Position numbers and translations under genes: made by a program
In this document: positions 44,874-54,606 of the stretch, in pieces
Numbering within the stretch: position 1 is the stretch's first letter
How the letters are laid out: every line of letters starts with the position of its first letter
Origin: Candidatus Acidiferrales bacterium
GTDB taxonomy: Bacteria > Bacteroidota > Ignavibacteria > Kryptoniales > JAKASW01
Direction of reading: 5' to 3'
Assembly: GCA_035515795.1 (NCBI GenBank)
Contig: DATJAY010000030.1
Coordinates: forward strand, 1 to 64,000
DNA length: 64,000 bases
The notes under the pieces: generated by a model
Database searches by the model: none
What the model was told of the DNA's origin: nothing
The model's input: only the letters and a program-made list of their open reading frames with translations

Positions 44874-45406
44874 TGGAACGCGCAGCGGACAAAAGAGGAA
44901 GTGTCGGTACGTTTCTTGTGGGAGTGCTTCTCCTCGGGCTGGGTGTGCTCCTTTTAATGAGCCGGGCGGGGGTTCTCAGTTTAGATTTTGAACGGATCAT
45001 TGCCTTCATGGTTCTCCTGTCGGGTGGATATGAGGCGATCACTGCGTTCGCGTCCTCCAACCACGGCAGATTATTTTGGGGATCAGCGTTGTTTTTGGCG
45101 GGACTCCTCGTGCTTCTCGTCGCCTATGATCTTGTTCCCGGTGCATGGAATCAGATATGGCCTTCGGTTCTTATCATCCCGGGTTTGTCGTTCTTGATGT
45201 TGTTTTTTTCCAACGTCAAAGAGTATCGCCTTCTAGTGATCGCGGTGCTGTTTGTCGCATTCGGGTGGATAGGGATGATGATTGCGAAGGGCGACTTCAA
45301 TTTCAGCGATCGTTTGTTCGGTTTGCTGCGTTTCATCGTTTCAGCGGCAATAGTTCTAGCGGGTTTCTATTTAGTCTGGAAGAATTTTTTCAGAAGAAAA
45401 TATTGA
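44870..45406 (+). CDS. Five-helix membrane protein, LiaI/LiaF-like
   Basis: A 178-residue protein made almost entirely of hydrophobic segments (TFLVGVLLLGLGVLLLMSRAG; IIAFMVLLSGGYEAITAF; SALFLAGLLVLLVAYDLVP). Further helices are IWPSVLIIPGLSFLMLFF and FIVSAAIVLAGFYLVW. It resembles the membrane part of LiaI/LiaF-type envelope-stress proteins. It follows the double-PspC gene with an ATGA overlap, and both together suggest an envelope-stress module. Two adjacent ATG codons offer alternative starts one residue apart. No charged catalytic motif. Confidence 0.75.
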   Translation: MMERAADKRGSVGTFLVGVLLLGLGVLLLMSRAGVLSLDFERIIAFMVLLSGGYEAITAFASSNHGRLFWGSALFLAGLLVLLVAYDLVPGAWNQIWPSVLIIPGLSFLMLFFSNVKEYRLLVIAVLFVAFGWIGMMIAKGDFNFSDRLFGLLRFIVSAAIVLAGFYLVWKNFFRRKY

Positions 45407-45607
45407 TTCGATAAGGGCGGAATCGAGCAGGGAGATATTCCACAGATTGCCTGCGCACTTTGGATAATTGAGTGGCGATATTTAGTCCTGGGACACCTCG
45501 TAACTTGAAAATACTTCGGAGAGGAACTACATTTTGATTGTAGTGATGTGGGTATGAAAGGCGGCCAAGTTTGTTTTGAGTAAGTTTTGTATCAAAGGGA
45601 GGCTAAC

Positions 45608-46879
45608 GTGGACAGAATCAAACTCGTATGCAGCGTAGTATTTACTCTACTCATTGTTAAGGTGGCTTTCTCCCAGGAAAAACAAATCAATCCGGACTAT
45701 CTTGACTCACTTCTGATCGCCGGTGATTTCAAGACATTCATTGTAAGTTGGGAGGAGTTCTCTCAGAATTTTGCAGTGCGCGGAATCCCTTCGGAAGAAG
45801 CAGAGGATTATGATACACTTACCCAAAGGCTTCGCCAATTGCCGATAGCAAATGCGGGACGGCTCCAGGAGCTTTCCGGAATTTTTGAAGCATCTTATCT
45901 GGATTTGATAACATGTCCTCGCGGCGAAAAGGCAAGTCTCGAATGTCAGAAGTTTGTAGACGCCGCGGCAAACCAGCAGTACTTTGTTGCATTGGAAGAT
46001 TTCTACGCTGCGCTTTGCTTTATGAATAAGTATGTTCAATCCGGAAAGAAACGCCTTCGGGATGACTATGCCATGGCAGAGGAATTATATCTTGGCGGCA
46101 AGTACGACGAAGCGTTGCGGTTGATAGAGACTTTTGAGGATGAGAGTCCGTCGAATCCCGCTTTCGTCATTCTTAAAGATTCATTGTCGTTTCCTTATTC
46201 GGAACTTAGAAGGAAAATAGAAACGAAGAAAGCGGAATTAGAATTCGTTTCAGAGAACAACTACGATAGAAAAAACTTTACTCTAAGTGTTGATCTGGAC
46301 ATGACGGCATACCAGAAACCCGCCGATGATCCCGGGATGATCTTGAGGTACAAGGGGAGTCCTAGTCCTAGTAATTATGACATTTATCTTAGAGATCTGC
46401 CTGTGGGCATCGAGGGCAGCTTTGATTTGCAGGCTGAGTACAATTTAAGCAGGTCGCTTTCTTTCGGTGCACGGTGCGCAATTGGAACAATTCAGAATGC
46501 CGACTTAGAAACCTTGGAGGGCACGGTGCATCTGTCTGAGAAATTCTATTCAGCCGGGATCGTTGGGACGTATTTCCCAGCATGGTCCTCGTTTGTAAAA
46601 CCTTACTTTCGATTGGAGTCAGGTGTCATCCAAGTGGTGAGGGGGGAAATGCAGCTTGATCCTTCCAGCGCCTGGTACTCGGAATACTTTCCTGTATCCG
46701 AAATTACGAAAACTTATCCGGAAATTTTGGGAGAAATAGGAGGCGAATATCAGATTAAAGGCAGCAATCTATTCTGTTTTGGCGCCCATTTGTTAGTCTC
46801 TGATGTTTTTGGAAACACAAGTCTCATTGAGCATTTTAGTTTCGGCGGCGGGATACAAGTCGGAGTGAATCTCTTTTAA
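45608..46879 (+). CDS. Exported protein with helical N-half and beta-barrel-like C-half
   Basis: A 423-residue protein. GTG at 45608 is the likely start, since GGGAGG lies 5 bases upstream and a signal peptide follows (CSVVFTLLIVKVAFSQ). The frame is open to 45587. The N-half is helical (YDTLTQRLRQLPIANAGRLQ; YAMAEELYLGGKYDEALRLIE) with a TPR-like look. The C-half has strand-rich GIEGSFDLQAEYNLSRSLSF, YSAGIVGTYFPAWSSFVKPY and a final FSFGGGIQVGVNLF typical of outer-membrane barrels. It precedes the LytS/LytTR cluster by 90 bp and may be sensed by it or be its target. No family recognised. Confidence 0.72.
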   Translation: MDRIKLVCSVVFTLLIVKVAFSQEKQINPDYLDSLLIAGDFKTFIVSWEEFSQNFAVRGIPSEEAEDYDTLTQRLRQLPIANAGRLQELSGIFEASYLDLITCPRGEKASLECQKFVDAAANQQYFVALEDFYAALCFMNKYVQSGKKRLRDDYAMAEELYLGGKYDEALRLIETFEDESPSNPAFVILKDSLSFPYSELRRKIETKKAELEFVSENNYDRKNFTLSVDLDMTAYQKPADDPGMILRYKGSPSPSNYDIYLRDLPVGIEGSFDLQAEYNLSRSLSFGARCAIGTIQNADLETLEGTVHLSEKFYSAGIVGTYFPAWSSFVKPYFRLESGVIQVVRGEMQLDPSSAWYSEYFPVSEITKTYPEILGEIGGEYQIKGSNLFCFGAHLLVSDVFGNTSLIEHFSFGGGIQVGVNLF

Positions 46880-46969
46880 AGATAATCGATATATCTCCTC
46901 TCTCTTGACGTAACGACTGCTTTGATAAGTAGCTTGGCGGGCACTAAATTTCATCGAAACATCACTGGT

Positions 46970-48133
46970 ATGCTTATGCGAATGGATAAGAAGTTCGTCG
47001 CCTCAATTGTTAGTATGTACTCTCGCGGTCCGTTTCCCATTTTCCTATTTGGCGTACTGACGGTTGTTGCTCTCGTAGTTGCGATGCAGCAATTCTATAT
47101 CATCAACTACAACACAGTAACGAGATATGACCTTATCTGGCACGTTCCGTTCAATCTATTCTATTTCTGGTACTGGTTCACCATTTTGCCAATCATGTAT
47201 TGGATCATCATTGATTTCAAACCCAGAAGATACAACGCATTGTATTGGACCTTTTTATATTTCCTCATGCCCATCGGGATTGTACTCATTCATCAGGTGA
47301 TAGCTTCGGTTACGATAAATCTGTTCCTCGGGTATTCCGACTTTTTTACTCTCGTATATAAACGAGTGGTGCGTAATCCGTGGGTGGGAATGGATCTGAC
47401 CCTCTATTTTGCGATCATGATAGCGATAAACATTGTTGAGTATCAACAGAAGAACAAAGCGGACGAATTGAGGTTGGCGCAACTTCAAGCGCAGCTTGTG
47501 CAATCCCAGCTGAGCGCACTCGAAAGTCAGCTGCATCCGCATTTCCTCTTCAATACCCTGAACGCTGTTTCGACTCTCATATTAAAAAGGGAAAATCGAG
47601 AAGCGGAGAGAATGCTTCGCTTGCTTCATGAATTCTTGAAATCGACTATATATCAAAATGAAAGACACGAAATCACCTTTAGGGAAGAAGTCCGATTCAT
47701 CCGGCAATATTTGGAAATTGAAAAAGTGCGATACAAAGACCGGATGGAAATCGAATTAGATATTGGAGAAGAGACTTTGGATGTGTTTGTTCCAAATTTA
47801 CTTTTGCAGCCGGTACTTGAGAATGCGATACGTTATGCAGTTGCAGCGAGAAAATCCAAAGGGATTGTCAAGATCACGTCGAAGCTGGAAGACGGCCGTC
47901 TGAAAATAATGGTCGAGGACAACGGGCCCGGTTTGGTTGTCCCGCCGGAGAAAAAATCGAGAGAAGGGCTGGGACTGAAAATAACTAAAGAGCGGCTGGC
48001 CCATTTTTGCGGAGATAAATATCTCTTTGAGCTGGAACCCTCTTCTCTCGGGGGATTGAAGGTTAGAATGGAGATCCCGTTCGTGAAACGCGAAGAAAAT
48101 TCTTATGGCTCGCTGGTTTACAGTCCTGCATGA
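46970..48133 (+). CDS. LytS-type sensor histidine kinase
   Basis: A membrane sensor kinase of the His_kinase (PF06580-like) family. Four hydrophobic segments cover about residues 15-150. The kinase core has the phospho-His box ESQLHPHFLFNTLNAVSTL, the N-box LLQPVLENAIRYA, G1 VEDNGPGL and G2 EGLGLKITKERL, so it should be active. The frame is open from a TTG at 46922, but ATG 46970 (or 46976, 46982) gives a normal N-terminus; no clear ribosome site helps. It is co-directional and overlaps the next kinase gene by 29 bases. Confidence 0.92.
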   Translation: MLMRMDKKFVASIVSMYSRGPFPIFLFGVLTVVALVVAMQQFYIINYNTVTRYDLIWHVPFNLFYFWYWFTILPIMYWIIIDFKPRRYNALYWTFLYFLMPIGIVLIHQVIASVTINLFLGYSDFFTLVYKRVVRNPWVGMDLTLYFAIMIAINIVEYQQKNKADELRLAQLQAQLVQSQLSALESQLHPHFLFNTLNAVSTLILKRENREAERMLRLLHEFLKSTIYQNERHEITFREEVRFIRQYLEIEKVRYKDRMEIELDIGEETLDVFVPNLLLQPVLENAIRYAVAARKSKGIVKITSKLEDGRLKIMVEDNGPGLVVPPEKKSREGLGLKITKERLAHFCGDKYLFELEPSSLGGLKVRMEIPFVKREENSYGSLVYSPA

Positions 48134-49304
48134 AGATATTTCTAAACATGCTCGTTTTCACGCCGATGAATCTCAAAGCGGGGAGATGGTGAAGCGCAAA
48201 GAATATGAGCTGAACGTTCTGGCTCCCCTTTTTGTGGTGTTGACTTTAGTGGCCGTCGTTAACACTCTGCAAGCGTATTATGTCTTCTTCAATGGCGATC
48301 GCTCGTTTTCCAACTTCATGCGGTTCCTGACCTCAAACACAATCTATTGCTGGTACTTTCTAATTCCTGCCTTGATAGTAAGATGGCTCTCCAGGAGAAT
48401 TTCGCTGAGGAGGGAGTTGCTGTTCGGTTGGGTGCTGGTGCATCTGACAACGCTCTTTCTCTCGCTGGTCGTTCACCAGATAATTTCTTTGGAGGTTGAC
48501 ACAGCTCTTTTGCTGAGGAACGGCGCAACCTTATTCGGTGCGTTGCTTAACAATCCGTCGGTGTGGGAAGATGTTGTGGTTTATGTCTTGTACGTCTTGG
48601 GCTTTTATATGATCGAGTACAAAAGGATCGGCCGCGGAAATGAAATTCGACAAATGCAGCTCGAAATAAAAATTTCGAAGGCGAGGCTGCTTGAGCTGAA
48701 GGGGAAAGTGCACCCGCAGTTCTTATTTAGCACGCTGGAAACAATTACGGAGCTTGTAAGAAAGAAGAAAAACAGGGAGGCGGACAAAGCGCTGTCATTG
48801 CTTGGCGATTTCTTGAGAGCATCGGTGTACAACAGAGAACAAGAAGAAATTACATTGGGAGAAGAGATTCACCTGCTCAACCAATACCTGGCTATAAAAA
48901 AAATCAAGAGGAAAATCAAAATTACCGAGAACATCGACGCCGAATTGATGAATACATGGGTTCCCAATTTTATCCTCCAGCCGATCGTGGAACACCTCAT
49001 AACGCGCAATGAGGATTCCAATGATATTATGCTCGGGATTGGAGTCAGCGCATCCAGAGAGAATGACGAGCTAACTATAGCCGTAAACACTGAGAACGCA
49101 ACTTCTGACAATGCATCAGAAGGCGCCGGCGACATCGAAACGATTATGGACGTTACAAAAAGAAGACTCAATCAATTGTACGCCCATCGCTGCGAGGTGA
49201 GGCATGAAGTGAATGGTGAAAACAAAGAGTTTATCGTGGTGCGGATACCCTTCCGTAACAGTTTGTACGACAAAAAAATATCCATCGTGGAGCAGAAACG
49301 TTGA
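48105..49304 (+). CDS. LytS-type sensor with degenerate ATP-binding domain (probable pseudokinase)
   Basis: A paralogue of the preceding kinase, with four similar membrane segments and a recognisable H-box (KGKVHPQFLFSTLETITEL) that keeps the His. The ATP-binding half has decayed. The N-box reads ILQPIVEHLITRNED, with the key Asn replaced by His; the G1 DNGPG is absent (TIAVNTENATSD), and G2 reads IMDVTKRRLNQLY. It probably cannot autophosphorylate. It may heterodimerise with the first kinase and be phosphorylated by it. It overlaps the response-regulator start by 4 bases (TTGA). Its own start overlaps the upstream gene. Confidence 0.85.
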   Translation: MARWFTVLHEDISKHARFHADESQSGEMVKRKEYELNVLAPLFVVLTLVAVVNTLQAYYVFFNGDRSFSNFMRFLTSNTIYCWYFLIPALIVRWLSRRISLRRELLFGWVLVHLTTLFLSLVVHQIISLEVDTALLLRNGATLFGALLNNPSVWEDVVVYVLYVLGFYMIEYKRIGRGNEIRQMQLEIKISKARLLELKGKVHPQFLFSTLETITELVRKKKNREADKALSLLGDFLRASVYNREQEEITLGEEIHLLNQYLAIKKIKRKIKITENIDAELMNTWVPNFILQPIVEHLITRNEDSNDIMLGIGVSASRENDELTIAVNTENATSDNASEGAGDIETIMDVTKRRLNQLYAHRCEVRHEVNGENKEFIVVRIPFRNSLYDKKISIVEQKR

Positions 49305-50116
49305 ATGTGCGTGCGGTCATAGTCGACGATGAGCCTCATGCCAGAGAAGGCATAAGAATCCGCCTTGAAAAATATAGAGACATCAAGGTCGTGGGAGAAT
49401 GTGCCTCCGGTTCAGAAGCCGTCGAAGTAATAAATGAATTGGAACCGGATCTTCTGTTCCTTGACATACAGATGCCCGGAATAAACGGGTTCGAAGTTCT
49501 GCAGAGGATAAAGGTCGATACATTACCGGTAATCGTTTTCATCACCGCCTACGACAAGTACGCAGTGAAAGCTTTCGAGTACCATGCGCTCGATTATCTT
49601 TTGAAACCGATCAACGAGGAGCATTTCGATGAGATGATCCGAATTGCCGTCTCACAGATCAGCCGCCGCAATTTTGAATCATATGCCGATAAACTGGAAT
49701 TGCTTGTAAAAGATTATCTGAAACTTGCAAAGGGAGAATACGTTGTGCCGCAGGTTCGGTCAGGCGATTCTGCTAAAGAGTTTCTTAGCTGTCTGACGAT
49801 CAAATCTAAGGGGCAAATTTCATTGGTACCGGTTCAGGAAATCGACTGGATAGAGTCGGCTGGTGATTATGTATACATTCATTCGAATGGACGTAAACAA
49901 ATCGCACGCGAGACGCTTGTCTCGCTTGAGCGGAGAATGGATCCGCGAAAATTCGTGAGAATACATCGTTCAGCAATTGTAAATCTTGAGAAGATCAAAA
50001 CCCTCAAACCGAATGAGCATGGTGATTATGAAATCTGTCTTCAGAACGGAGATCGCCTGAAGTTGAGCCGATCTTATCGAGGACATTTTCAAAAAGTGAT
50101 CGGCAGTTCAATCTAA
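49301..50116 (+). CDS. LytTR-family response regulator
   Basis: A 271-residue regulator. The receiver domain has acidic VDDEP (D8-D9), phospho-acceptor D55 in LLFLDIQMPGINGF, ITAYDKYAVKAF and LLKPIN. The C-terminal LytTR DNA-binding domain reads IDWIESAGDYVYIHSNGRKQ, RKFVRIHRSAIVNL and LSRSYRGHF. It binds direct repeats upstream of its targets, usually extracellular or cell-wall genes; the adjacent candidates are the pectinesterase and the barrel protein. It starts with TTG, overlapping the pseudokinase stop. Confidence 0.94.
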   Translation: MNVRAVIVDDEPHAREGIRIRLEKYRDIKVVGECASGSEAVEVINELEPDLLFLDIQMPGINGFEVLQRIKVDTLPVIVFITAYDKYAVKAFEYHALDYLLKPINEEHFDEMIRIAVSQISRRNFESYADKLELLVKDYLKLAKGEYVVPQVRSGDSAKEFLSCLTIKSKGQISLVPVQEIDWIESAGDYVYIHSNGRKQIARETLVSLERRMDPRKFVRIHRSAIVNLEKIKTLKPNEHGDYEICLQNGDRLKLSRSYRGHFQKVIGSSI

Positions 50117-50371
50117 GTAACCGTTAACTTGTAACTCCGTTTCGTCCCTCCCCTTCTCCTTTTCGCCGAAGCATTATCCAACTAATCCCATTTTTGTTTA
50201 ATAAGAGGCGCGCAAAAGCGAACTTGTCGCCGAGCTTCAAGGATGAGCGTTGGCCCTGTTCTTGGTGAACAAAGAGATCCGCTTTGGGAGTAGCCTTAGA
50301 GGCCACGAAAGCATCATGACGATCGGGGGGCCGCAAGAAAGTTATCGATTCTAAAAACGTAGGGAGAAAAG

Positions 50372-53300
50372 ATGAAACGAAAGATACTCTTTCAGAGTTT
50401 GGCGATTGCATCACTAATAGTGTTGATGGTGTTCGATGGTAAACTGGTTGCCCAGTCGGCGGGCGATTTTAGGTCGCACCAGACAGGTAATTGGAGCAAC
50501 GACACCACGTGGGAACAGTATAATGGTACAACATGGGTCACGCCGGCTCCAAGTACGCCGACAGGAACCGAGAACATCACGATCCAATCAGGCCACACGG
50601 TTACGATCGATGTGACCCTTTCAATCACTGGCTACTTGAAAAATCAGGGGACCATTTCCGGTGCAACTGCATCAAACTTAGCGTTTGGGTCGGGCGGAAC
50701 CTACGAACATGCAGAGATCGGAGGCAGCCTTCCTACCGCTACGTGGGGAACAGGATCGACCTGTCTTGTAACGGGTTCCACATCTGCACAACCCGGTAAT
50801 ACCGTTCAAAATTTATATAACTTCACATGGAATTGTCCAAGTCAGAGTGCAAACGTGAATTTAGGATGGGACAACGTCGTAATCGGTGGAAACGTAACTG
50901 TCACTTCATGCAATGGCATAAGTTATCAGTTAAGGTTAACGAGTGCTGCAACTACCAGAACAATTAGGATATTAGGAAATGTCATAGTTAATGGTGGCTA
51001 TCTCACTGTAAGCGGCTCAAGCAGCAGTGCGCAATACAACACTACTGTGATGGGCAACATTGATATTCGAAGCGGGAAATTCAGCCTTTGCACCGTAGGC
51101 ACGTCATACACTGCAAACGGCACATGGTGGCTTTGTGGTGACAGTCTCGTAGTTTCCAGTGGAGCCAATTTTGGCGCTCCGTCGAATCCCATTATTGGCA
51201 CGCGATTAATATTCGCGAAGAAAAATGGCACACAATATTATTTGAACAATGGCGGTACGAACGGAAACTTGAACTATGGCATTGACAGCAACGCCACGGT
51301 ACAACTGAATTCGCCGCTGACAGTGGGAAATAGTACGACAGGTTTCCTGGTCATGACCAGCGGGAAATTTGTCACTACTTCTACGAACTTGATGACTTTG
51401 GCCGTCGGCGCAAGTGTGACAACTGGCAGCGGTTATGTCAGCGGACCACTAGCTACGATAGTTAATATCTCGTCTTCAAAAGCACTCACTTTGCCAGTGG
51501 GAAAAGATTCAGTTTATCGTCCTGTGATCCTGACTCTTACTCAAGATGCGGCCACCTCGACAACGTATACCACAGAACTCATCAACTCCACGCCTGCATC
51601 AAACACGTTGCCATCCACCCTCGATGCTGTTTCTACAGCAAGATATTTTCACATAGTGAAAGGCACAGGCGCCAATGTATCGAGCGCAACAATCCAGTTG
51701 AATTATGATACCAACGATGGAGTTGATGTAAGCAACAAAGATTATATAAGAATTGCGAAGGATGATGGTGCAGGCAATTGGATAAACCTTGGTGGAAGCG
51801 GGACGGCGAATAATACCGGCAGCATACTCTCTAATACGTTCGGCACATCAACTTCTCTTGGAACCCTAACGACAAATGATTTTGTCATCGCCCATGTAAA
51901 TCCTGCTTCTGTTCCTGTCCCTCCCACGTTGACGACAGACTCTCTCATCAATATATCTACCACCTTTGCGACAAGCGGCGGTGTTATTTCTAATGATGGT
52001 AACGCCGCGATCACGGCAAAAGGAGTTTGCTGGAACACGACCGGAACTCCAACGACATCTGACAATTTTACGAACGATGGAACGACCTCAACTCCTTATA
52101 CGAGCTCGATAACGGGTCTCAGCGCCGGTACCACGTATTACGTTCGAGCTTATGCGACAAACAGCGCCGGCACCGGTTACGGTAATCAGGACACTCTTGT
52201 TACGTTGGCAGTTCTCTCTGCACCCACTGTAACTACCAGTGCGGTGACTAATATCGTGAACACCACTGCAACAGGGAACGGAAATGTTACTGCGTGGGGC
52301 GGTTCTACTGTGACTGATCGAGGAGTTTGCTGGAGCACGTCCCACAATCCTACTTTGGCGAATGATTACAACAGTGGTGGTACAGGGACAGGCGCATTCA
52401 CCGCTCCTATCGGCGGACTCACGCTCGGCACGACATACTACGTACGCGCTTACGCCACCAATAGTACCGGAACAGCTTATGGCAATGAGGTATCATTTGC
52501 TACCCCGGCACCTCAACCCGACGTTTATAAGATTGTGGCGAAAGATGGAAGTGGAGACTACACAACTATAACAGATGCGTTCAACGCTGTTACCAGCAAT
52601 TATACCGGACACTGGTTCATCGGTGTCAAGAACGGAACGTATTATGAAAAGCCCTTGCTTGCCTCGGGAAAAATAAACGTCGTTTTGATCGGTCAGAATA
52701 GAGACAGTACGATCATAACTTATGACGATTACGCCGGAGACAATCGGACGACAAATGGTGTCACGAGCAGCGGCACAAGCACTTCTTATACATGCGCCAT
52801 CGATGCTAATGATTTTCAGGCGCAGAATATTACCTTTCAAAATACCTCGAATGCCTATGCTCCAGGCTCTACGTCAGCTCAGGCAGTTGCGCTCCGAACG
52901 CACGGTGATCGACAGGCGTATTACAATTGCAAAATGACTGGTTACCAAGATACGTATTACACATGGGGTGGATCCGGCCCAGGACGTATTTACAACAAAA
53001 ATTGCTACATCGAGGGAGCGGTAGATTTCATTTTTGGAGAAGATGTTGCCTTGTTCGATAGTTGCACGATTTATTGCAATCGCGCGGGAGGCACATTGAC
53101 TGCTGCGGCAACCTATTCCGGCTATTCGTACGGCTATGTGTTTTCGAACTGCACCATTGCGTCCATTGCTGCCGGAGATACTGGATGTGACAACAAACCA
53201 ATGACTTCTTTCTACCTGGGGAGACCCTGGCAGAATTCACCTGAAACGGTTTTCATCAATTGCTATGAGCCGGGAACTGTTAACTCGGCCGGTTGGACGA

Positions 53301-54103
53301 CGATGGGTCCTGCACCATCTCTGTATTCCGAGCATGGATGCTACGGACCCGGTTCAGCTTTAAGCAGGGCCGTGATATGGACTGCTACGAGCCAGCCGTC
53401 AGCGATAACCGATTCACAGGCGGCGTTATACACTGTTGCGAACATATTTTCCAAGAGCAATGCGGGCTCGGGCTTTTCGTATGCGGCAAACTGGACCCCG
53501 TCGATGATTGTCGCTAACTCTGCTGATTTGCCGCTTCCTGTCGAAATGGTGTCATTCACTGCCAGCTACGCTGAAAATGGAGTTACACTGAATTGGTCGA
53601 TGTCTTCTGAACTGAACAACTCCGGCTGGGATGTTGAAAGAGCAGTAGTGAAAAGCGGCGCCCAACCTGAGTGGCAGAAAATTGGCCATGTTAACGGGAC
53701 GACGAACAGCACAGAGTTGACGAAATACAGCTTCGTAGATAGAAAAGCGTTGAGCGGCATTTTCAATTACAGGTTGAAACAAATGGACATCAACGGGAAC
53801 TATAAATATAGCAACCCGATACAGGTAAAAATAAATATACCGACGAAGATAGGCCTGTGGAATTATCCGAATCCGTTTAATCCGACCGCGACCTTGCGAT
53901 ATGCAGTGCCGAAGGAAGGCAAGGTAACTTTGAAAGTCTACAACGCGGTCGGGCAATTGGTCGCAACTCTCGTGGATGAAAACAAAGATCCCGGGATGTA
54001 TGAGATCCCGTTTGAAGGATCCGCATTTTCGAGCGGCGTGTACTTTGCCCGATTGAACGTAAACGATCAAGTGATGATCACTAAAATGTTGATGATCAAA
54101 TAG
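50372..54103 (+). CDS. Large secreted pectinesterase (CE8) with FN3-like repeats and T9SS sorting domain
   Basis: A 1243-residue exported enzyme. After a signal peptide (LAIASLIVLMVFDGKLVAQ) comes a ~480-residue region of beta-helix/adhesin-like repeats. Two copies of an ~100-residue FN3-like module follow around residues 515-715 (KGVCWNTTGTPTTSDN; DRGVCWSTSHNPTLAN). The CE8 domain (about 718-995) has VAKDGSGDYTTI, YQDTYYTW, GAVDFIFGEDV and LGRPWQN, giving the catalytic Gln/Asp, second Asp and Arg. It demethylates methyl-esterified pectin. The tail carries NYPNPFNPTATLRYAV and GVYFARL, a T9SS type A signal. No pectate lyase is adjacent. Confidence 0.92.
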   Translation: MKRKILFQSLAIASLIVLMVFDGKLVAQSAGDFRSHQTGNWSNDTTWEQYNGTTWVTPAPSTPTGTENITIQSGHTVTIDVTLSITGYLKNQGTISGATASNLAFGSGGTYEHAEIGGSLPTATWGTGSTCLVTGSTSAQPGNTVQNLYNFTWNCPSQSANVNLGWDNVVIGGNVTVTSCNGISYQLRLTSAATTRTIRILGNVIVNGGYLTVSGSSSSAQYNTTVMGNIDIRSGKFSLCTVGTSYTANGTWWLCGDSLVVSSGANFGAPSNPIIGTRLIFAKKNGTQYYLNNGGTNGNLNYGIDSNATVQLNSPLTVGNSTTGFLVMTSGKFVTTSTNLMTLAVGASVTTGSGYVSGPLATIVNISSSKALTLPVGKDSVYRPVILTLTQDAATSTTYTTELINSTPASNTLPSTLDAVSTARYFHIVKGTGANVSSATIQLNYDTNDGVDVSNKDYIRIAKDDGAGNWINLGGSGTANNTGSILSNTFGTSTSLGTLTTNDFVIAHVNPASVPVPPTLTTDSLINISTTFATSGGVISNDGNAAITAKGVCWNTTGTPTTSDNFTNDGTTSTPYTSSITGLSAGTTYYVRAYATNSAGTGYGNQDTLVTLAVLSAPTVTTSAVTNIVNTTATGNGNVTAWGGSTVTDRGVCWSTSHNPTLANDYNSGGTGTGAFTAPIGGLTLGTTYYVRAYATNSTGTAYGNEVSFATPAPQPDVYKIVAKDGSGDYTTITDAFNAVTSNYTGHWFIGVKNGTYYEKPLLASGKINVVLIGQNRDSTIITYDDYAGDNRTTNGVTSSGTSTSYTCAIDANDFQAQNITFQNTSNAYAPGSTSAQAVALRTHGDRQAYYNCKMTGYQDTYYTWGGSGPGRIYNKNCYIEGAVDFIFGEDVALFDSCTIYCNRAGGTLTAAATYSGYSYGYVFSNCTIASIAAGDTGCDNKPMTSFYLGRPWQNSPETVFINCYEPGTVNSAGWTTMGPAPSLYSEHGCYGPGSALSRAVIWTATSQPSAITDSQAALYTVANIFSKSNAGSGFSYAANWTPSMIVANSADLPLPVEMVSFTASYAENGVTLNWSMSSELNNSGWDVERAVVKSGAQPEWQKIGHVNGTTNSTELTKYSFVDRKALSGIFNYRLKQMDINGNYKYSNPIQVKINIPTKIGLWNYPNPFNPTATLRYAVPKEGKVTLKVYNAVGQLVATLVDENKDPGMYEIPFEGSAFSSGVYFARLNVNDQVMITKMLMIK

Positions 54104-54141
54104 GACATCGACCGCTGCTTGAGTCGAGTTAGGTTAACTTC

Positions 54142-54179
54142 AAACCCCGACCGTTTCTCCTCGGTCGGGGTTTTCTTTT
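54142..54179 (+). terminator. Intrinsic terminator after the pectinesterase gene
   Basis: A perfect 12-bp GC-rich stem, AAACCCCGACCG paired with CGGTCGGGGTTT (54142-54153 and 54162-54173), encloses an 8-base loop. A T-rich tract TTTTCTTTT follows. It lies 39 bp after the stop codon and ends the pectinesterase unit before clpS. Confidence 0.93.
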
Positions 54180-54252
54180 GATTCTCTGAAAGATCCTGCG
54201 GACAAATCTTGAAAGAGACTCGTCATAGGTTTATATTTTACAGAGGTTTACA

Positions 54253-54603
54253 ATGGTTCTATCCGATCCCGCGAATACGATTTTTGATCCGCAGGATACC
54301 GCTGGCAATATTTCTGATCAGTTGACCGAAGAAAAGCCTCTCACGATTGAAGATGAAGAGATCACGTCGGGCGAACAAAACCCGGCGAGAGTCATTCTGT
54401 TCAATGATGCATGGCACACATTTGAGGAAGTCATAGGACAGATCATAAAGGCAACCGGATGTGATACGAAAAGAGCTGAACAGATCACTATGGAAGTTCA
54501 TACGAAAGGAAAAGCGGTAGTCTTTGAAGGCGAAATGACCGAATGTCTTCGTGTCAACTCTGTATTGGAAGAGATTTCTTTGCATACACAAATTGAAGTA
54601 TGA
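54253..54603 (+). CDS. clpS: ClpS adaptor protein
   Basis: Delivers N-end-rule substrates to the ClpA (or ClpC)-ClpP protease. The conserved core is RVILFNDAWHTFEEVIGQII, CDTKRAEQITMEVHTKGKAVV and AECLRVNSVLEEI-like CLRVNSVLEEISLHTQI. The hydrophobic pocket region and the N-degron contact Asn/Asp (FNDAWHTF) are present. It has an acidic N-terminal tail of ~45 residues. The ATG is at 54253. It is immediately followed by alaS, suggesting co-transcription; clpA is not nearby. Confidence 0.93.
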   Translation: MVLSDPANTIFDPQDTAGNISDQLTEEKPLTIEDEEITSGEQNPARVILFNDAWHTFEEVIGQIIKATGCDTKRAEQITMEVHTKGKAVVFEGEMTECLRVNSVLEEISLHTQIEV

Positions 54604-54606
54604 TTG

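Follow-up and report, generated by a model that had tools for sequence, protein, structure and literature searches.

The locus at positions 46970–50116 of the window (the whole stretch analysed, 64,000 nucleotides of contig DATJAY010000030.1 from Candidatus Acidiferrales bacterium) raises the question of what role a kinase-like protein can have when it is encoded between an intact histidine kinase and a response regulator and has itself lost its catalytic residues. Three overlapping ORFs of the + strand were confirmed here, in the order K1–K2–RR; the ORFs and the Pfam matches agree with the initial annotation, which had described a kinase, its paralogue, and a LytTR regulator. K1 (46970/46976–48133, + strand) is a membrane PF06580 histidine kinase according to Pfam, alignment, and AF2/Foldseek. 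It was rightly called intact: its motifs are HPHFLFN, LQPVLEN, EDNGPG, and GLGL, and the PHF acceptor, the N box, and the Gly boxes are all present. K2 (48105–49304, + strand) is a pseudokinase paralogue with the membrane and DHp parts retained, as indicated by Pfam, alignment, phylogeny, and AF2/Foldseek. RR (49301–50116, + strand) is a response regulator with a receiver and a LytTR DNA-binding domain (Pfam Response_reg and LytTR). The K2 and RR genes overlap by 4 nt, and the overlap of K1 and K2 is 29 nt given the ATG at 48105; an in-frame ATG near 48186 is also a possible start of K2.

Pfam recognises both His_kinase (PF06580) and HATPase_c in K1 and His_kinase alone in K2, in which no match to HATPase_c was found. 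The NCBIfam search gave no family for K2, and the nearest families to RR are BtsR and LytR, both under the cut-off. The 5TM-5TMR_LYT input domain (PF07694) was matched in neither K1 nor K2 at E up to 1. Hydropathy analysis with a strict threshold indicated four hydrophobic stretches in K1 and three in K2. By their predicted domains and motifs, K1 and RR have the features of a PF06580/LytTR two-component system, while K2 does not.

The acceptor in PF06580 kinases is the His of the PHF motif. In BtsS of E. coli, His382 is the proven phosphorylation site, and the H382Q substitution abolishes phosphorylation (PMC10653868); a check on the sequence placed residue 382 at the H of VNPHFLFN. The corresponding motif is HPHFLFN in K1 and HPQFLFS in K2, and the K2 residue aligned with the BtsS phosphoacceptor is Gln205 (codon CAG, 48717–48719, + strand). 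The His retained by K2 is located two residues ahead of the acceptor and aligns with BtsS Asn380, at a position that varies among K2s (H, Q, K, or N). The N-box Asn is replaced by His297 (48993–48995, + strand; LQPIVEH in K2 versus LQPVLEN in K1), and both Gly boxes are gone in the alignment. Thus, the losses described by the initial annotation, together with the preserved membrane part, are all found, but the H-box His that it considered to be kept is not the acceptor, which has become Gln. Since this residue is Gln, trans phosphorylation of K2 on it is contradicted by the sequence. Judged by its motifs, K2 is a full pseudokinase lacking both the ATP-binding motifs and the phosphoacceptor, and therefore all phosphate chemistry would have to proceed via K1.

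The AF2 models of K2 and K1 have mean pLDDT values of 77 and 78, with pTM of about 0.5 and shallow alignments. The best Foldseek match of both models is the GanS kinase domain 6swk (E 7e-9 for K2). In the predicted structure, the CA region of K2 still looks like a kinase domain, i.e., a fold without the catalytic residues.

K1–K2 pairs were gathered from relatives, from 391 genomes of the class, and from named contigs, the latter originating from Ignavibacteria(e), Stygiobacter, or unclassified Bacteroidetes bins. There are 17 pairs, including that of the window; a partial K2 at one more locus (L043) was counted apart. The triad with like losses recurs at the 16 loci beyond the window, which is more than chance, and K2 directly follows K1, adjacent or overlapping, at all 17. 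The PHF motif and the N-box Asn are kept in 17/17 K1s, whereas the acceptor His is found in none of the 17 K2s, where it is replaced by Q (nine), T (two), S (two), E (two), A (one), or D (one). The N box is likewise lost, and no K2 in any pair has intact Gly boxes; homologues of that kind at the same locus had been named as the sign of a recent local error. A protein-level scan of the genome contigs with K2 alone gave no match, and when an alignment was used as the query instead of the single K2, ten K2 loci were found. No K2 orthologues were detected outside the class in a phylum-level sample of 395 genomes, and the distant matches inspected have intact motifs.

On the phylogenetic tree, with 13 single kinases as the outgroup, all the K2s fall into a single clade (100/100) and all the K1s into another (87/97); therefore, one old duplication explains the pairs. 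The dN/dS values of K2 in four ortholog pairs are 0.07–0.22, which are rough values, as dS is near saturation. Taken together, the sequences show a single origin and retention of K2, which evolves under purifying selection. The mean identity among K2s is 49% in DHp, 35% in the membrane part, and 25.5% in CA, compared with 63%, 44%, and 47% among K1s. Five K2s (L147–L151) have a CA region that is truncated, cannot be recognised, or is missing. In addition, the K2 membrane domain has its own near-invariant residues (HQ and NP..W.D). Such a conservation pattern would be expected if the role of K2 depended on the membrane and dimer parts but not on the ATPase part.

Several observations on related loci can be noted. 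In the K2s without a recognisable CA (L149, 5178–6233; L150, 5542–6492; L151, 4413–5363), the acceptor is replaced by Asp or Glu, and such a residue might mimic phosphate. Kinase–regulator–kinase-like loci (L200, 2018–4825; L201, 1397–4205; L202, 1943–4780) represent a different family within the class; the product of their third gene reads NPQF, NPKF, or NPRF at the acceptor and is apparently an independent pseudokinase partner. Finally, at L203 (1703–4611), tandem kinases with NPHF in both precede a LytTR-type regulator, possibly a pair before one member degenerates.

The gene downstream of RR in the window (50372–54103, + strand) encodes a pectinesterase that is predicted to be secreted, with a CE8 domain at 52532–53449 and a C-terminal T9SS sorting tail; its Pfam matches and linkage make it the likely target gene. 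A pectinesterase (PF01095) is the next gene after RR at 13 of the 16 assessable loci, and most of these enzymes have fn3-like domains together with a T9SS tail; L147 is unassessable because the contig ends there. Three loci have the pair and no adjoining pectinesterase: a GDSL esterase is encoded at L040, a TonB-receptor-like protein at L145, and L146 is the third. The pectinesterase target is consequently not universal across the loci. In the sample from the class, a pectinesterase is encoded in each of the 14 genomes that have the pair, compared with 87 of the 391 genomes overall (hypergeometric P 3e-10, a value that ignores relatedness). Long pectinesterases elsewhere in these genomes, some contigs of which are short, are not accompanied by K1, K2, or RR. 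A GH28-family enzyme is encoded ahead of K1 at three loci.

In seven congeners, the LiaF-like gene is separated by 2–4 kb from alaS, which encodes alanyl-tRNA synthetase (868 aa), and none of K1, K2, RR, and the pectinesterase occurs in this interval; in the window, the two flanking genes are 9.2 kb apart. The four genes are present or absent as one unit. The LiaF-like/alaS interval as such (45406–54604 in the window) varies in the genus from 2 to 9 kb and differs in its contents. Upstream of K1, the window encodes a barrel protein of 430 aa (45587–46879) with no family match above the cut-off. The initial annotation had mentioned it in connection with surface or polymer signals as inputs or outputs. 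It has no counterpart at other K1–K2 loci and was rejected as a conserved input; an MFS transporter, a GH28 enzyme, a PF00144 protein, or unrelated genes occupy its position elsewhere. At four loci (L148, 1353–2381; L149, 7350–8375; L150, 7576–8559; L151, 6450–7430), a conserved gene is located directly before K1. In the two that were scanned, it belongs to PF00144 (beta-lactamase/esterase fold), and it is possibly part of the module there.

At the start of the stretch that separates RR from the pectinesterase gene, a direct repeat, CTCCGTTTCGTC / CTCCTTTTCGCC, with a period of 21 bp is present at 50135–50167 (+ strand). This candidate LytTR binding site fits the rule for such sites, namely two repeats of 9–11 nt separated by a spacer of 11–13 nt (PMC4847170). 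When the RR–pectinesterase stretches of 13 loci were compared with shuffled sequences, z reached 5.3 for period 21 and 3.9 for period 20, with all other periods from 14 to 32 below 2; for nine representatives only, the value at period 21 is 4.7. Nothing was found at period 21 in the controls, which were the region preceding K1 and a segment of the K1 gene itself. The effect is uneven among the loci, being weak or absent by this test in L037, L039, L041, and L151. A matrix built from the three other loci of the genus, with the window left out, gives the 50135–50167 repeat a score of 34.4, the next best score being 10.6. Across the 4.1 Mb genome, the repeat consensus is matched exactly only once, by this repeat; a second match with 3 mismatches is inside a coding sequence and was discarded. 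The search for LytTR-type repeats suggested by the initial annotation was thus successful before the gene at 50372, but neither the matrix scan nor the statistical test revealed any before the barrel gene (45608) or before K1. The earlier expectation of an output at surface polymers fits well with this repeat ahead of the gene and with the frequent linkage to a pectinesterase.

We propose that K1, K2, and RR probably constitute a three-component regulator dedicated to the downstream pectinesterase, in which K2 is a pseudokinase that pairs with K1 for sensing and allostery. Phosphate would pass from the CA domain of K1 to the K1 His and then to the Asp of RR. K2 most likely pairs with K1 via the conserved DHp helices and the membrane domain and, as a receptor or allosteric subunit, would add sensing and allosteric control. 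Phosphorylated RR may bind the repeats of 21-bp period that lie immediately after the RR gene, and this binding would switch on the pectinesterase exported by the T9SS. The signal is likely to be pectin-derived. In a K1:K2 dimer, autophosphorylation of K1 would be possible in cis only, and K2 would make the sensor asymmetric. More tentatively, the K1:K2 dimer may be an obligate one, having one acceptor His and one ATPase domain; it would then be a one-site, cis-only kinase, with the second half as a dedicated receptor, and the same trick might have evolved again in the L200–L202 family.

Several known systems resemble this arrangement. The FasBCA operon of group A Streptococcus also combines one response regulator with two kinase-like membrane proteins, and one of these partners, FasC, is a proposed pseudokinase with a dispensable kinase domain; FasB and FasC heterodimerise in the two-hybrid assay, and FasC is proposed to perform the sensing (PMC12675982). 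However, FasC keeps and needs His246, whereas K2 has lost the acceptor, and therefore the phosphate must stay on K1 if the pair works as proposed. The outputs also differ: the sRNA fasX in Fas and a secreted pectinesterase here. The membrane pseudokinase RocA modulates the active kinase CovS, co-immunoprecipitates with it, and works without its own His; in contrast to K2, where the residue is gone, RocA still has its predicted, dispensable acceptor His246 (PMC7028121). Given the FasB–FasC heterodimer and the binding of RocA to CovS, the K1:K2 sensor is favoured. With BtsS and YpdA and their LytTR regulators (PMC10653868, PMC5552118), the system shares the PF06580 DHp, the PHF acceptor in K1, the LytTR regulator, and the direct-repeat target site; it differs from them in that no 5TM-5TMR_LYT was found here and in that two paralogous kinases are present instead of one. 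In DivL–CckA of Caulobacter (PMC4211667, PMC9430884), a histidine-kinase-like protein is repurposed to control another kinase. That pair functions in the cell cycle, and the likeness is one of description.

The main rival explanation is that K2 is a brake or decoy and no active co-sensor: it would form dead dimers with K1 or sequester RR, keeping the output low until a ligand frees K1. We consider it unlikely, though DHp, the best-kept region of K2, would serve titration equally well. The Asn four residues past the acceptor is missing in most K2s, which agrees with a brake or decoy and makes a phosphatase role via that residue unlikely. On the other hand, a mere decoy would not need a conserved membrane domain with near-invariant residues. 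Activation and inhibition by K2 cannot be separated on the basis of sequence. Less probable still is that K2 is a separate receptor or scaffold, acting as a homodimer or with another partner and contacting K1 only indirectly. The contact of K1 and K2 is itself derived by reasoning, which leaves room for this explanation, but the invariable position of K2 directly after K1 (17/17 loci) and the joint gain and loss of the genes do not favour it. The initial annotation also suggested trans phosphorylation of K2; in a FasC-like scheme, K1 would phosphorylate the H-box His of K2, which would hand the phosphate to RR. The FasC precedent, a pseudokinase of a similar operon that keeps and requires its His (PMC12675982), speaks for this scheme; however, with the acceptor replaced by Q, T, S, A, D, or E in 17/17 K2s, with the remaining His unconserved (H/Q/K/N), and with BtsS-H382Q not phosphorylated (PMC10653868), it is highly improbable. 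The same can be said of the idea that K2 is decaying or that the window carries a recent local error: the CA domain does erode and is missing in some members, but like losses at 17 loci, one clade, low dN/dS, and intact frames argue against it.

The three-component regulator with a K1:K2 sensor, proposed above, is in line with the other suggestion of the initial annotation, a paired sensor in which K2 merely tunes K1; the existing data support the tuning role, and the heterodimer would be its most plausible form. Kinase–pseudokinase pairs are already known (FasBC, RocA–CovS, and DivL–CckA), each described as a single case among those found. In the literature searched, no paper was found in which a LytTR system targets a pectinesterase or the K2 pseudokinase family is described. 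As far as this search extends, the conserved family with both the acceptor and the ATP site lost, a pectinesterase as its dedicated target, and the graded loss of CA are new.

Here, a whole orthologous set consists of pseudokinases without the acceptor and the ATP site, some of them without the ATPase domain, while selection continues to act on the membrane and DHp parts. Should the sensor work as a K1:K2 dimer, it would provide a natural test of cis versus trans autophosphorylation and would show what the second half of a kinase dimer is needed for. The dedicated repeat and the pectinesterase may serve as a simple reporter for tests of this kind.
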